Source: a virus | Virus record (IMG/VR): IMGVR_UViG_3300036846_000450 | Location: 1 to 51,032 of that record | DNA length: 51,032 nucleotides | Reading direction: 5' to 3' (one strand) | Notes under the pieces: model-generated | Databases searched by the model: none | Told to the model about the DNA's origin: nothing | What the model saw: only the letters and a program-made list of their open reading frames with translations | Translations under genes and position numbers: made by a program | In this document: in pieces, positions 1,177-47,638 of the stretch | Layout of the letters: the number at the start of each line of letters is the position of its first letter | How positions within the stretch are numbered: the first letter of the stretch is position 1

Positions 1177-1367
1177 GGCCCAATGTTGCGAGCGTCACGA
1201 TACTGAAAACAAGTTTTTAAACTCTTGGCATTTCCCTTTGCGGGGCGCCTTCCGTGGCCTCTTCGCAAAGTAAGTTATGCGGATTTTTTATGGGCAACTG
1301 CAAAAAACGTTTGAGTGAAACTTTTAAAAGGCTTGCTTCGTAGTATGGTTGAACAAGGAGAATGCCA
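1177..1367. promoter_or_regulatory. divergent AT-rich control region of the left arm
   Basis: About 190 bases between the minus-strand operon and the plus-strand repressor. It is clearly richer in A and T than its surroundings, with runs such as ttttta, aaaaaa and cttttaaaag, and should hold promoters for both directions plus repressor operators. No single -35/-10 pair is convincing by eye. An AAGGAG Shine-Dalgarno at 1354-1359 serves the repressor. Confidence 0.5.
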
Positions 1368-2093
1368 ATGCTTGCGCATTTCCATCATCACTTTAAAGGT
1401 TCATCGATGGATAGCTCAACCGACCACATTCGTCTTCGTACCTTCGTGCGCGAGCGCATCGAAGCGCAAGGTTTGACGATGGCTGAAGTTTCAAAATCAA
1501 TTGGTAGAAATCCTACTTACATTCAGCAATTCGTCAGCAAGGGCGTTCCTAAAGAATTCGACGAGGCGGATCGAAAGCTACTTGCGATCATCTTGCAGGT
1601 CGCTCCGTCGAAGCTCATGGGGCCGGGCCGTCCGCGAACATCCCGTACTTTTGATGAATCGATCAACAAACGAATTAACGAACTATGGCCACGACACGAA
1701 GGAGAGTTTACAGAGCTCCCCGTCTACCACGCGGTCAAAGAAGACAGTGGCGTTGTTGTAATGTCGAAGCGACCGAAGAGCAAAGCAGTCCCGCCCATGG
1801 GTGCGAACGCCTATTGTCTTTACGTCGCCGACGATTCGATGGCGCCAGAGCATTGCATCGGTTCGCTTGCCATTGTCGATCCAGATCTCGAACCAAGGAT
1901 AGGAGCGACTTGCGTCTTCGTCGCGATCGGCGGACACAGCGAGATCAAGATCCGTCGCATTAAGGGTGAGACCGCCGACAGTTGGAAAGTTTTCGCTCAC
2001 AACATCGCCGGCCGACACAAGGATGAGACCTTGCCCAAGGCACGCTACAATCGGCCGCACGTCACTTGCGGCAACTATTTCCGAACCGCGTAG
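1368..2093 (+). CDS. phage repressor with S24 (LexA/CI-type) peptidase domain
   Basis: About 241 residues. The N-terminal part (roughly residues 34-64) is a helix-turn-helix with the S-K-S-I-G-R-N-P-T-Y-I-Q-Q core; the C-terminal half is an S24 self-cleavage domain with a D-D-S-M motif (nucleophile Ser near residue 157) and a candidate catalytic Lys in E-I-K-I-R (near 194). This is the build of a CI-type lysogeny repressor that is inactivated through RecA. ATG codons exist at 1362, 1368 and 1407; 1368 is chosen because the AAGGAG at 1354-1359 is eight bases from it. It faces the methylase operon across an AT-rich control region. Codon use here is less GC-rich than in the structural genes, which may mark a separate origin. 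Confidence 0.85.
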   Translation: MLAHFHHHFKGSSMDSSTDHIRLRTFVRERIEAQGLTMAEVSKSIGRNPTYIQQFVSKGVPKEFDEADRKLLAIILQVAPSKLMGPGRPRTSRTFDESINKRINELWPRHEGEFTELPVYHAVKEDSGVVVMSKRPKSKAVPPMGANAYCLYVADDSMAPEHCIGSLAIVDPDLEPRIGATCVFVAIGGHSEIKIRRIKGETADSWKVFAHNIAGRHKDETLPKARYNRPHVTCGNYFRTA

Positions 2094-5941: not shown

Positions 5942-6307
5942 ATGGCAGCTGCGCGCTGGGACAACTTTAGACGGCCCGAATATATCGAGCGTTTGCGACT
6001 CACGCGTGAGGCGCTCGGCTACGAGCAGCAGAGGACGTTTGCCGAAGCGCTCGGCATCCCGTTCAAGCGCTGGAACAGCTACGAACGTGGCTACCCGATC
6101 CCGCGCGAGACGGCGTGGCTGCTCGAAAAAACGTTCGGCGTCTCGGTCGAATGGCTGTGGTGGGGCAAGGAAGGCAATATGCCGAAATCGCTGCTCAAGA
6201 AGATCCACAGCGCCAGGGTCAATTCTGCTGAACTACTAGAGGCCCTCGAGGAGGAGCGCAAGGCACGGTTGAGGGTCGATAAACTCAAGGCCAAGAAGCC
6301 AAGCTAA
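5942..6307 (+). CDS. helix-turn-helix regulator, relative of 40242-40523
   Basis: 121 residues. Residues about 15-70 form a Cro/CI-like helix-turn-helix, including F-A-E-A-L-G-I-P-F-K-R-W-N-S-Y-E-R-G. The relative at 40242-40523 is identical through R-W-N-S-Y-E-R-G-Y-P-I-P-R-E-T-A-W-L-L and keeps W-L-W-W-G-K-E-G-N-M-P. This one has an extra charged coiled-coil tail. A likely operator stands upstream at 5866-5886. The stop codon lies inside a terminator stem. Confidence 0.7.
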   Translation: MAAARWDNFRRPEYIERLRLTREALGYEQQRTFAEALGIPFKRWNSYERGYPIPRETAWLLEKTFGVSVEWLWWGKEGNMPKSLLKKIHSARVNSAELLEALEEERKARLRVDKLKAKKPS

Positions 6308-6814: not shown

Positions 6815-6869
6815 GCGGCGCTGCCGCGCCGCTCTTCTTCGAAAAAGAGCCTGACGCGACTAGCGTCAG
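6815..6869 (-). terminator. tandem hairpins after the Rep-like gene
   Basis: On the minus strand, CTGACGC (6863-6869) pairs with GCGTCAG (6851-6857) and is followed by CTCTTTTTC, a standard Rho-independent terminator that also contains the rep stop codon. A second perfect stem, GCGGCGC/GCGCCGC at 6815-6821 and 6826-6832, lies just beyond. Confidence 0.7.
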
Positions 6870-7435
6870 TCCGATATTGCTCTCTTCAGCCGGCCCAGAG
6901 CGGCCTCGAGCTCGGGGTCGATCGCGATCGGGACCGGTTTTTGCGCTGGCACCAAGGGAAAAGATTCTTGGCCTGCGGTTCCAGGCTTAATTTCGGACTT
7001 AGACCTTTGCACGTCGGGGACCGCCGCGAACTGGTAGGCATTGGAAGTCCGCAGCACCCGCGAGCGCTGGCCGTGCTGGCCCTGGCCGAACAGGTTTAGG
7101 ACCGTCTCATAGACGCGCTTGATGCGATGGACCCAGGTCAGCAGGCCAGAGGCCTCGAGCGCTTTGATGGCCTCGTAGACCGTCGAGCGGGCGCAGCGGG
7201 CCTTATCCGCAATCGCCTCGTAGGATGGGAAGCACCAGCCGCTGTGGGCGTTGTGGAAGCCGTACAGGAGCGCCTCCAGGACCGCTACGTGCTTCGCCGT
7301 GAGCGCGCCATAGTGCTTGCGCTCCTCGGTTCGACGCATCAGCGCCCTCGCCTGGCGCATCAGGTTGGCTTTCTGGTGCCCGGTCATCGGGCGCGGTCGG
7401 CCGTAGCCGAATAGCTTCTCGCGTTTTGTCGTCAT
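6866..7435 (-). CDS. replication-initiator-like winged-helix protein
   Basis: 189 residues from the ATG at 7435 (ribosome site GGGGG just before it). Residues 45-105 form a winged helix of the type seen in replication initiators and plasmid Rep proteins: S-Y-E-A-I-A-D-K-A-R-C-A-R-S-T-V-Y-E-A-I-K-A-L as recognition region. The place argues for a plasmid replication role: it lies beside a repeat array and a ParA gene. It might instead be a transcription factor of the same fold. Its leader carries several hairpins, described separately. Confidence 0.6.
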   Translation of the reverse strand: MTTKREKLFGYGRPRPMTGHQKANLMRQARALMRRTEERKHYGALTAKHVAVLEALLYGFHNAHSGWCFPSYEAIADKARCARSTVYEAIKALEASGLLTWVHRIKRVYETVLNLFGQGQHGQRSRVLRTSNAYQFAAVPDVQRSKSEIKPGTAGQESFPLVPAQKPVPIAIDPELEAALGRLKRAISD

Positions 7436-7451: not shown

Positions 7452-7529
7452 CCGCGCCACTCACCAGGCAAAGCTCCGCCGATCGGGAGAACGTCGTGTT
7501 TCCCGTTGACGTGTTCTGCGAGGTGTGGG

Positions 7530-7562
7530 AGAACCGGGGCTGTCAGGGGCTCCGGTTTTTTG
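7530..7562 (+). terminator. plus-strand hairpin with T6 tract in the rep leader
   Basis: AACCGG and CCGGTT pair around a G-rich loop and are followed directly by TTTTTT. On the plus strand this would end a transcript that is antisense to the rep leader. Confidence 0.5.
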
Positions 7563-7580
7563 GTTCTCCCCCACCATTTC

Positions 7581-7608
7581 AAAAGACCGCCCGGCAAGGC
7601 GGTCTTTT
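7581..7608. terminator. strong symmetric 11-bp stem-loop
   Basis: AAAAGACCGCC (7581-7591) pairs perfectly with GGCGGTCTTTT (7598-7608) around a six-base loop. With A-run and T-run at the ends it can stop transcription in either direction, and would separate the rep and par units. Confidence 0.75.
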
Positions 7609-7753
7609 TCGTTTCAGGCGTGCCGTTGCGGCCCTGCTCTCCTTGCGAATCGAATGTACCGATTTATCAGATTCGCCGCAGTCCGGCGAAAGGCGATTGC
7701 CTATGCCTTTGTAAGACCTCACCCGTAAATCTGGCGTTAACGACTATGCTATA

Positions 7754-7929
7754 GCAGTGTCGCTGCTGACAGCGGTGTCACCGCTGTGCAGCTGCGTCAC
7801 CGCTGTGTGGTGGTGTCATCGCTGAATGGCAGCGTCACTGCTCCATGGCAGCGTCACTGCTGACACTGCTGAAAGGCAGTGTCGACACTGTCAGCAGTGT
7901 CGGCAGCGTCACCACTACACGGCAGTGTC
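7754..7929. repeat. array of ten GCRGYGTC repeats, candidate centromere/iterons
   Basis: Ten direct copies of an 8-base motif (GCAGTGTC, GCAGCGTC and close variants) start at 7754, 7772, 7791, 7810, 7829, 7848, 7876, 7894, 7903 and 7922, most of them 18-19 bases apart, with inverted copies (gacactgc, gacactg) between. Each is usually followed by CACTGCTG or CGCTGCTG. The array lies directly upstream of parA. In type Ib partition systems the ribbon-helix-helix partner binds such repeats there as centromere and operator; an iteron role for the nearby Rep is the alternative. Confidence 0.75.
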
Positions 7930-7974
7930 AGCATGGTCAGCATCGTCAACACTAAACAGCAATTGGGGAACCTT

Positions 7975-8622
7975 ATGAAAACGATAGCCTTCGTGACGCA
8001 AAAGGGAGGGTCGGGCAAGACGACCTTGTCGGCGTCGATCGCCGTGGCCGCGACAGAAGCAGGTGAAAATGTCGTGGCGCTGGACCTGGATCCGCAGGGA
8101 TCCCTGGCCCGCTGGGGCAGTCGGCGCGAGCTCGAGGCGCCCCTCATCGATCGCCTGGGCGACGATCGCTTGGCGCAGCTGCCGCAGATCCTGCAGGCGT
8201 TGAAGGCAAAAGGGTACACCCTGGTGATTCTCGATTTCCCTGGTCATCTGTCGACCGCCGGCAATCTGGCCCTCGAAAGCATCGACCTCGCGATGGTGCC
8301 GACCCGGCCGACGACGCTCGACCTCCAGGCCGCGATGCCGACCACCCAGACGCTAGCCCAATTCCAGAAGCCGTTTCTGTTCGTGCTGAGCCAGTGCCTG
8401 CCGGGCACCAAGGCCCGCGCCAACGAGGCCGCCGCCGGCCTGGCGAGCCTGGGTGTGCTTGCCGATTCGATGATCGTGCAGCGTATCGACCACCAGGACG
8501 CCCTGGCGGCCGGCAAGGGCGTGACCGAATTTGCCCCGTACGGAAAGGCCGCCGAAGAGATTCGCGCCCTGTGGGCCTCCATTAGCAAGGCCCTGGCGCC
8601 TCAGAAGGAGCTCGTCGCATGA
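7975..8622 (+). CDS. parA: ParA-type partition ATPase
   Basis: 215 residues. The deviant Walker A K-G-G-S-G-K-T-T is at 10-17, the D-L-D-P-Q-G block at 37-42 and Walker B V-I-L-D-F-P-G at 84-90. It lacks an N-terminal DNA-binding domain, as in small type Ib ParA proteins that move plasmids over the nucleoid together with a small partner. The ATG at 7975 is chosen because it gives the usual M-K-T-I-A-F start and follows a ggggaa ribosome site; longer starts would run into the repeat array. The partner gene overlaps its stop by ATGA. Confidence 0.9.
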   Translation: MKTIAFVTQKGGSGKTTLSASIAVAATEAGENVVALDLDPQGSLARWGSRRELEAPLIDRLGDDRLAQLPQILQALKAKGYTLVILDFPGHLSTAGNLALESIDLAMVPTRPTTLDLQAAMPTTQTLAQFQKPFLFVLSQCLPGTKARANEAAAGLASLGVLADSMIVQRIDHQDALAAGKGVTEFAPYGKAAEEIRALWASISKALAPQKELVA

Positions 8623-8969
8623 AGCGTCCATCCCTGGCTGACGTCCTGAACGAACCCAGCATCCTGCCGGACCCGCAGCCGCCGCAGCAGCCAGTGCAAC
8701 AGCAAGCGCAGCCGGCCAAGCCGGCCAAGCGACCGCAGATCGTCCGCAATCAGCCGCCGCAGCCATCGTCCGACATCGTGCGGACCTCGATCTACATCTC
8801 GCGCGAGTCGCACGAGCGGCTGCGCGAGATCGCGTTCGCAACACGGAGGAGGGTCCACAGCCTGATCGTCGAAGGCATCGACAAGGTCGTCGCCGATTAC
8901 GGCCACTCCGAATCGGCGCGCGTCAAACTTGGCCCCAAGAGTTGGAAGCGACTGCGGGACGAGGGGTAG
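8619..8969 (+). CDS. ribbon-helix-helix partition partner (ParB/ParG-like)
   Basis: 116 residues. The first 50 are flexible, rich in Gln, Pro and Lys, as expected for the arm that stimulates ParA. Residues about 53-95 form a ribbon-helix-helix: R-T-S-I-Y-I-S-R-E-S-H-E-R-L as strand and first helix, then R-R-V-H-S-L-I-V-E-G-I-D. It is coupled to parA and most likely binds the repeats upstream, doing both segregation and autoregulation. Not related in sequence to HTH-type ParB. Confidence 0.75.
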   Translation: MKRPSLADVLNEPSILPDPQPPQQPVQQQAQPAKPAKRPQIVRNQPPQPSSDIVRTSIYISRESHERLREIAFATRRRVHSLIVEGIDKVVADYGHSESARVKLGPKSWKRLRDEG

Positions 8970-36804: not shown

Positions 36805-37461
36805 ATGACCAAGTCGGCGATCGTCTACATCCGCGTTTCCACCCAGAAGCAGGGCCGCTCGGGCCTCGGCCTGGAGGCGCAGCAGGACGCCGTGGCGCGG
36901 TTTTGCGCCGCGGAAGGTTTCGCGATCGCGCAGACCTTCGTCGAGGTCGAGACCGCCAAGGGCGCCGATGCGCTGGAGCGCCGGCCGCAGCTGCGCGCCG
37001 CCCTGGCGCTGGCCAAAGCCAACAACTGCCCGGTGATCGTCGCCAAGCTCGACCGGCTGTCCCGCGACGTCGCCTTCATCGCCGGCCTGATGGCAAGCCG
37101 CGTGCCCTTCATCGTCTGCGACCTCGGCGCCAATGCCGACCCGTTCATGCTGCACATCTACGCTGCGCTCGCCGAGCAGGAGCGCCGCATGATCTCGACC
37201 CGCACCAAGGTGGCGCTTGCCGCGGCCCGTGGGCGCGGCGTCAAGCTGGGCTCACCGACCACCCCGGCGATGCTGCAGAACCGCGCGCTGGCCTTCGCTG
37301 AGACGCTGCGCCCGGTCGTGGAGCCGCTGCTCGGCCTGTCGTTCCGCCAGATTGCGGCCGCGCTGAACGAGGCCGGCCACACCACCGCGGAGGGCCATGC
37401 CTGGCAGTACAAGACCGCGCAGCGCCTGGTGCAGCGTCTCCAGGGCAAGCCAATCGCATGA
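36805..37461 (+). CDS. small serine recombinase (resolvase/invertase)
   Basis: 218 residues. The catalytic Ser12 lies in Y-I-R-V-S-T; the L-D-R-L-S-R-D motif with its active-site Arg residues is at 80-86; the long E helix follows, and the end (about 165-215) is a helix-turn-helix with [13 protein letters not shown]. Size and layout are those of resolvases and DNA invertases. It could resolve multimers of the circular form or flip a segment. Inverted repeats just downstream are candidate target sites. Confidence 0.85.
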
Positions 37462-45302: not shown

Positions 45303-45947
45303 TCATCGGAGCCAGCCCTTCTGCCGCATCGTGTCGTGCAGCGCGTCGCTGGCGATGTCGGTGGATTTTTGCACGGCTTCCCTTGCCTTGTCGGCGAGAC
45401 CCTTTGCCGGCCCAGGCGGCGGTGGCTGCGGAGCCGGCGGAGCCGGCGGCATCGAGCCATCTGAAATCTCAGGGGTTTCGGGTCGCGCGCGCGCAGCCTC
45501 AGAAACAGGTCTATCTATATCTTCTTCTGGTAGCTTGACGGTTGCTGCCGTTTTGCTGCCGTTTTGCTGACCGTTTTGCTGCACGATTGCTGCACGTTTG
45601 CTTGACGGTTGCTTACCGCCCCACCGAGCAATTGCTGATGCGGTCCCCCCGATCGAACCAGCCAGGCGCCGGCGCTCGCTGACCTGGTCGGCGGCCACCA
45701 GGTCGCGCTCGATCCGATCGTGCCGCCAGCCGGGCCCGAAAAATGGCGCGATCACTGACCGGATCTTGCGCCAGGTGGCGAGCGGCATCCGGGTGATGGT
45801 GGCGAGTTCGCGGTCGTCGTCCGGCAAGCCGCCGTGGGTCCAATAGTGCAGGATCAGCAGGAAGTAGGCGCCGTGCTGCGCGGTGGTGAGGTGCTGGGTG
45901 TCGCCCAGGTAATCGCGCGGCCAGAACGGCATCCAGGGGCGCTTCAT
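45303..45947 (-). CDS. DUF1376 (YdaU-type) replication-associated protein
   Basis: 214 residues. The N-terminal 90 residues carry the DUF1376 pattern: W-M-P-F-W-P-R-D-Y-L-G-D-T-Q-H-L, G-A-Y-F-L-L-I and H-Y-W, then L-A-T-I-T-R-M. After a linker rich in Gln, Thr and Pro comes a short helical end, which in such proteins may contact a helicase or DnaA-like partner. First gene of the long early operon and the only replication candidate in the circle. Confidence 0.75.
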   Translation of the reverse strand: MKRPWMPFWPRDYLGDTQHLTTAQHGAYFLLILHYWTHGGLPDDDRELATITRMPLATWRKIRSVIAPFFGPGWRHDRIERDLVAADQVSERRRLAGSIGGTASAIARWGGKQPSSKRAAIVQQNGQQNGSKTAATVKLPEEDIDRPVSEAARARPETPEISDGSMPPAPPAPQPPPPGPAKGLADKAREAVQKSTDIASDALHDTMRQKGWLR

Positions 45948-46360: not shown

Positions 46361-47638
46361 ATGACCAAACGCCGCCTCACCGACGCCGATATTTTTGCCC
46401 TTCCCGATGGCGCCCACGGCTTCAACGGCCCGCAGCTCGACGTCCGCGGCGACGACCGCCGCTGGAGCTGCAAGGTGTATCTGCACAAGGTTCGGTTTAC
46501 AGTGCAGCTCGGCACCGCGGCCGAGCTGCCGACCGCGGCGCTCGCCACCAAGGCGATGATCAGGGCCCGCAAGATGGCCAAGGACGGCATCGATCCCCGC
46601 GAGACCGTGCGCCTGGAGCGCGGAACCGTGCCGACCTTCGGCGTCCAGGCCGAAGCCTTCATGGCCGACTACGTGCCGACCCTGAAGAACGTCAAGCAGC
46701 GCGCCAAATGGTTCTCCTCGGTGCGCAACCACTGCAAGCCGATCTGGAGCATCAAGGTCGACGCGCTCACCACCTCGCACATGCTGCTGGTGCTGAAGCC
46801 GATCTGGACCAAGATCCCGACCATGGCCGCGGAGGTCCGCTCCCGCATGGAGATGATCATCGACGACGCCACCTTCCGCGAGCACCGCAAGGGCGAGAAC
46901 CCGGCGCGCTGGACCCTGCAGATGCAGCGCTCGCTCGGCGGCAGGCCGCCCAGGTCCGGCAAGACCCGCGGCTCGCAGCGCGCCGTCCATGTCGACCAGG
47001 TTGGAAGCCTGATGGCCGATCTCGCCGCCCGCAACACCCAGACCGCGCGCGCCATCTACGTGCTCACCCTGACGTGCCTGCGCGGCGTCGAAGAATTCTT
47101 GCCGATGCACACCAGGGAGCTGCAGCTCGACGGCGCGCAGGCCTACTGGACGGTCCCCTATGGGCGCCTCAAGGTTGACCCGCATGGCCACGATTTCCGC
47201 GTGCCGCTGCCGGCCCAGGCGGTGCGGATGCTGCGGGTGCAGCTCGACTACCTCGAAAGCATCACCGGCCAGGTGCCCTACCAGGGCTACCTCTGGCCCG
47301 CCATCAACAGCGGCGAGCGCGAGCTGATGGGCTCCGGCACCATGCTGGCCTACTTGCAAAACACCCTGAACCTGCCGGCGACCGTTCACGGCCAGCGCGC
47401 GGTCTTCAAGACCTGGGCACGCGGGCAATTTCTTGAGGGCACGGAGGCGACCCCGAAATATCACCACGACGCGATCGAGTACTGCCTGGCGCACACCACG
47501 CCGGGCGGCCGTGCGTCGAGCGAAGACCCGTATTCCCGCGACGAGATGATGCTGAAGGCGCGCGCCGTCATCCTGCGCGACTGGGCCGATTTTTGCGCGC
47601 CGGTCGCAGTCCGCGGCGGCTTGCGCGCCGTGGCGTAA
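46361..47638 (+). CDS. int: tyrosine integrase (P4-type)
   Basis: 425 residues. An N-terminal arm-binding part, a core-binding domain (about 95-185) and a catalytic domain from about 210. Catalytic residues visible: Arg241 in L-R-G-V-E-E, H-G-Q-R at 343-346 with Arg346, the H of L-A-H at 379, and a probable nucleophile Tyr391 in D-P-Y-S-R-D-E-M, with the W-A-D-F ending usual in P4-type integrases. The conventional T-G-x-R is here T-C-L-R. It points toward the excisionase-like gene, and a repeat-rich candidate attP lies just before it. Confidence 0.9.
   Translation: MTKRRLTDADIFALPDGAHGFNGPQLDVRGDDRRWSCKVYLHKVRFTVQLGTAAELPTAALATKAMIRARKMAKDGIDPRETVRLERGTVPTFGVQAEAFMADYVPTLKNVKQRAKWFSSVRNHCKPIWSIKVDALTTSHMLLVLKPIWTKIPTMAAEVRSRMEMIIDDATFREHRKGENPARWTLQMQRSLGGRPPRSGKTRGSQRAVHVDQVGSLMADLAARNTQTARAIYVLTLTCLRGVEEFLPMHTRELQLDGAQAYWTVPYGRLKVDPHGHDFRVPLPAQAVRMLRVQLDYLESITGQVPYQGYLWPAINSGERELMGSGTMLAYLQNTLNLPATVHGQRAVFKTWARGQFLEGTEATPKYHHDAIEYCLAHTTPGGRASSEDPYSRDEMMLKARAVILRDWADFCAPVAVRGGLRAVA

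Follow-up and report, generated by a model that had tools for sequence, protein, structure and literature searches.

The window analysed here, the whole 51,032-nucleotide stretch of a virus record, carries an array of 23 short sites directly upstream of a parA gene and a gene for a small ribbon-helix-helix (RHH) partner; judged by sequence comparison, this array is very probably the centromere of a type Ib partition operon that shares common descent with operons on plasmids of the Hyphomicrobiales, and it probably serves as the operator of that operon too. Type Ib partition is a known plasmid system; its place in a phage and the spacing of its sites are unusual. Centromeres of this type are situated upstream of the operon, combine direct and inverted repeats, and are bound by small RHH proteins whose tail carries an arginine finger (PMC5016525).

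The array (parS/parC candidate) spans positions 7752–7964 and consists of 23 pseudo-palindromic 8-bp sites with the consensus CACTGCTG / CAGCAGTG on opposite strands; both orientations are represented upstream of the operon, in the manner of a type Ib centromere. The sites were defined with a motif-plus-spacing model in which an 8-bp motif may lie on either strand and gaps of 6–12 bp are left free. Under this model, 15 of the steps between sites measure 9 bp and seven measure 10 bp, with no other values; the log-likelihood of the array is 109, against a maximum of 38 in dinucleotide shuffles. Fitting gives a period, or mean step, of 9.33 bp, and the largest offset of any site from the lattice is at most 0.9 bp. 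Step length is linked to orientation: 10-bp steps occur solely where a plus-strand site is followed by a minus-strand site (seven of nine such steps), and all 13 remaining steps are 9 bp long (nine of nine from minus to plus, and four of four between sites of the same orientation). The 9/10-bp spacing is internally very regular, yet it comes from one sequence alone.

The array is thus confirmed as real, and as larger than first described. The preliminary description had noted a dense array directly before parA, which sequence inspection and repeat searches (TRF among them) bear out, and had placed it at 7754–7929; the array is found there, and its true limits lie outside these positions on both sides. 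The proposed copies of GCRGYGTC, inverted ones included, are strongly enriched, with nine copies inside 176 bp of the array (eight forward, one reverse), and 56 in the whole window against 24 ± 5 in shuffles; the core counts between 7757 and 7925 are ten for GYGTC (forward) and two for GACRC. Ten copies of a 19-bp unit had also been proposed, together with a break of phase at 7867–7876. The free-gap model rules out both: each “19-bp repeat” contains two of the 23 sites, and the lattice runs unbroken through the supposed break, where only the order of orientations shifts, from alternating to mixed. Autocorrelation at lag 19 is evident (z 5.5); spectral power by itself is weak for the window, and the motif model tests the array more strongly. 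At its 3′ end the array stops where the likely Shine-Dalgarno sequence of parA (GGGGAA, 7965–7970, plus strand) begins, so that the last site abuts it. The same array was not recovered elsewhere: blastn against plasmids and phages gave zero matches, and a pattern scan of viral contigs returned one unrelated simple repeat. Rfam gave no match, and a consensus promoter scan detected no par promoter.

The parA gene (7975–8622, plus strand) encodes a ParF/ParA-type Walker ATPase of 215 amino acids, identified by matches to Pfam AAA_31 (8e-16) and to a ParA-like PHROG (1.7e-35); the best PDB matches in a profile search were the TP228 ParF/ParA structures 4dzz and 5u1g (about 1e-21). The protein is a small Walker-type ParA of the type Ib form, without an N-terminal helix-turn-helix (HTH) domain and with a KGGxGKT motif that includes the signature Lys10 (P-loop at residues 10–16). 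Directly after parA, and sharing a 4-bp overlap with it, follows the candidate gene for a ParB-like centromere-binding protein of 116 amino acids (8619–8969, plus strand), the small RHH protein expected in a type Ib operon, though it falls below the Pfam RHH cut-offs. An alignment profile matched ORF56 (3e-5) and other RHH proteins; the AlphaFold model has helices at residues 62–75 and 79–93, and Foldseek matches to this model are RHH proteins (Arc, CopASO, ORF56, CopG), with individual E-values that are weak because the RHH domain is short. By alignment profile and structure model, ParB is an RHH protein, with the RHH domain in its C-terminal part. Residues 1–60 have no secondary structure in the AlphaFold model, as a disordered N-terminal part would, and the alignment places an R-P-S motif near residue 3 that is kept in most relatives.

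Operons homologous to the phage parA-parB pair are found on Hyphomicrobiales plasmids and contigs, including Rhodopseudomonas palustris pRPA, Methylobacterium, Microvirga, Rhizobium, Agrobacterium, Xanthobacter and others, with ParA identities of 41–63%. The arrays of these relatives are likewise sited before parA and share the same design, with different sequences. A strict 8.0-bp lattice was found in 25 loci, for example L019 (18 of 18 steps), L004 (13 of 13) and L007 (17 of 17); three loci (L015, L070 and L105) have a 7.0-bp lattice, and ambiguous results came from 16 loci with mixed spacing and one weak locus with a modal step of 6. Among the loci compared, the window alone has the 9/10 lattice. 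In the ParA tree the window falls inside a clade of 24 rows (support 99/99) whose single-period arrays are otherwise all of the 8-bp kind; the wider spacing of the phage array therefore looks like a derived state. The proposal that the array is a centromere, already made in the preliminary description, is well supported by the ParF-like ATPase, the RHH partner, and these equally placed arrays in homologous plasmid par operons. In viral contigs, single-sequence ParA and ParB scans found no relatives, and an alignment-based search did; terminase families were not found in these par-bearing viral contigs, which are not claimed as phages. By eye, a second and shorter cluster of similar sites seems to follow parB on three of the plasmids (L003, 3463–3500; L002, 3460–3530; L004, 3450–3525); none was seen in the window.

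In type Ib systems, the flexible tails of RHH proteins activate ParA (PMC5016525; PMC5393062); in the pSM19035 system, one RHH dimer occupies each 7-bp repeat, and the ParA ATPase is fully activated only when four or more repeats follow one another with no gap between them (PMC9499535). For the phage, the proposed mechanism is that RHH dimers of the 8619–8969 product would bind side by side, one to each 8-bp site, presumably with cooperativity, and so cover about 23 sites without interruption. Once occupied, the array would display up to 46 flexible N-terminal tails, which would bind the ParA-ATP dimer on the nucleoid and stimulate its ATPase. ParA action would then move the phage episome over the nucleoid, so that the circular phage genome would be drawn into both daughter cells and could be stably kept as a low-copy episome; occupancy of the array would also repress the parAB promoter, as predicted for an autoregulated operon. 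At 10.5 bp per helical turn, the arithmetic gives a turn per step of about −40 degrees at 9.33 bp, about −86 degrees at 8.0 bp, and −120 degrees at 7.0 bp; if every site were filled, the dimers would follow a left-handed path around the DNA that is much slower than in the relatives. Tentative, and on balance rather doubtful, is the broader proposal that spacing in this family is restricted to a small set of discrete values (7.0, 8.0 and 9.33 bp), in the phage with an orientation rule, which would imply different dimer-dimer contacts and a different winding of the partition complex within the same protein family.

The array has a second neighbor, the Rep-like HTH protein gene (6866–7435, minus strand), which is divergent from parA; its product matches HTH_36 (2e-8) and replication-initiation PHROGs, and belongs to a family of alphaproteobacterial plasmids, with homologues of up to 52% identity. 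Near two helical turns is a spacing often seen in iterons, and an array that sits between a rep-like gene and parA could accordingly be read as the origin of the Rep-like gene, where binding of a plasmid-family HTH protein with weak similarity to initiators would start replication and set copy number. This reading is very unlikely. A direct-repeat array is absent beside the Rep-like gene in all four plasmid homologues checked; one Rep-like homologue adjoins parA, and no tandem array was found there. Similarly built arrays are found again next to parA in loci where it has no rep gene as a neighbor, and the phage sites point both ways, which typical iterons, as direct repeats, do not. What the rep leader does have is a stem-loop followed by an intrinsic-terminator-like hairpin (7508–7614, plus strand, antisense to the leader; −51 kcal/mol, z −3.7), as in antisense-RNA control; this element could be a candidate antisense copy-control RNA, which we offer as a lead only. 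The centromere reading is much the likelier because the arrays go with parA and not with the rep gene. Plasmids of Lichenicola and Methylocystis likewise seem to have hairpins ahead of their rep homologues. Rep-like homologues are found near parA on two Lichenicola plasmids, divergent from it in one; on these Lichenicola cladoniae plasmids (L320, 1798–3627; L321, 1664–3594), ParA, a small ORF and the Rep-like HTH family occur together, possibly as a small uncharacterised plasmid replicon type.

Two other readings leave the neighboring rep gene aside. The RHH protein might merely repress parAB through the array, with the partition site elsewhere; the array does reach the parA Shine-Dalgarno sequence, and RHH partition proteins double as repressors (PMC5016525). 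Yet 23 contiguous sites far exceed the needs of a repressor, and a site-matrix scan found no second lattice of this kind in the whole window, the next best independent chain being in GC-rich repetitive coding DNA; a purely regulatory role is therefore highly improbable. A role of the array in the par transcript, as a structured 5′ leader that works as RNA and not as DNA sites, would draw on the strong fold of the transcribed strand (−86.5 kcal/mol, z −5.1) and the alternating inverted sites. Such a fold is a consequence of the inverted repeats themselves, whereas a constant 9/10-bp spacing across both orientations is a property of a DNA lattice, and the plasmid relatives, despite their other sequences, hold to lattices of 7 or 8 bp; an RNA function can hardly be entertained.

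The candidate centromere is found in a phage genome: the 51-kb virus record contains portal, terminase, major head, tail fibre, internal virion, RecE/RecT and CI-like genes. Structural and packaging genes thus occur together with plasmid-family rep-like and parAB genes, as in a phage-plasmid. Sister phage contigs share the portal (55–77%) and the head protein (80–90%); the ParA family and the Rep-like gene are absent from all 31 of these contigs, which are roughly 30 kb or longer and not all complete, and in one sister contig the par/rep region is shorter. Since par and rep are absent from the 31 sisters, they look like a gained plasmid module, and the phage seems to have acquired this maintenance (rep-par) module. 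A CI-like repressor with an S24 peptidase domain (1362–2093, plus strand) and a second HTH repressor (5942–6307, plus strand) were also noted, and the phage is therefore probably temperate. Within the primosomal (DUF1376), O-like gene (45303–45947), 11/22-bp tandem repeats at 45538–45618 are a candidate phage replication origin, which would give the phage another replicon in addition to the plasmid-type one. A small serine recombinase (resolvase/invertase) of 218 amino acids (36805–37461, plus strand) is kept in sister phages at 67–72%; a role as par-linked multimer resolver is ruled out, since the sisters have it without par.

A phage-plasmid lifestyle, as the preliminary description suggested, is likely from this gene content: plasmid-type rep and par genes in a phage genome make it plausible, and proof is withheld by a full-length divergent tyrosine recombinase and by the absence of terminal repeats on the contig. 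A search of the window with the catalytic-domain profile PF00589 found nothing, and missed this recombinase (425 amino acids, 46361–47638, plus strand), a full-length homologue of a sister phage integrase in the same place near RecT/RecE. It has 29–30% identity to the integrase of sister G047, and its sole Pfam match is Phage_int_M; the catalytic R, HxxR, H and a nearby Y can be traced by eye, the catalytic Tyr being shifted by one alignment column. A recognisable tyrosine integrase is present in seven of the 31 sisters. The argument that the phage has no integrase and is for this reason extrachromosomal was dropped, given the match of the sister integrase to 46361–47638. As a caveat, a purely plasmid lifestyle is unproven because the divergent tyrosine recombinase is encoded, and with this enzyme at hand the phage may not need partition; some actinophages are known to combine an integration module with a partition module (PMC11652158).

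The window presents a soil podophage that, in contrast to its sister phages, seems to have acquired a rep-par module of plasmid kind. The single feature most likely to interest specialists is the site spacing; the natural series of 7, 8 and 9.33 bp within one ParA/RHH family bears on the question of what influence the distance between RHH sites, and their contiguity, have on the shape of the partition complex and on ParA activation.

Several characterized systems provide points of comparison. The type Ib parFGH system of TP228 resembles the phage operon in its small ParF-type ATPase without HTH domain, its small RHH partner with an N-terminus that is disordered (in the phage, as modelled), and its upstream repeat array; TP228 parH differs in its degenerate tetramer boxes and AT-rich spacers (PMC7308502), in contrast to the GC-rich 8-bp pseudo-palindromes on a 9.33-bp lattice found here on a phage. 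The type Ib delta/omega parS of pSM19035 shares short sites that adjoin one another and point in either direction, a single RHH dimer on each site (predicted for the phage), and an expected left-handed packing; it differs in having 7-bp heptads (WATCACW), several copies of the site, and genes outside one operon (PMC9499535, PMC5016525), whereas the phage has one array, 9–10-bp steps and an 8-bp pseudo-palindromic core. Closer relatives are R. palustris pRPA, Methylobacterium pNMS14P2 and the Rhizobium/Agrobacterium plasmids, which have ParA proteins of 50–63% identity, an RHH ParB, and an array directly before parA, and which differ by their 8.0-bp lattice; p2META1 of Methylorubrum extorquens AM1 and the parAB operon of Jiella have the same ParA family and array position, and differ by a 7.0-bp lattice. 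The parC repeats of the Leifsonia plasmid pCXC100 are reportedly about 9 bp long; if this is right, sites at 9-bp intervals also occur outside this ParA/RHH family. In the type Ib ParB/parC system of pCXC100, an RHH partition protein acts on a repeat array, as proposed for the phage; the difference is that its array is built of direct repeats only (PMC5016525).
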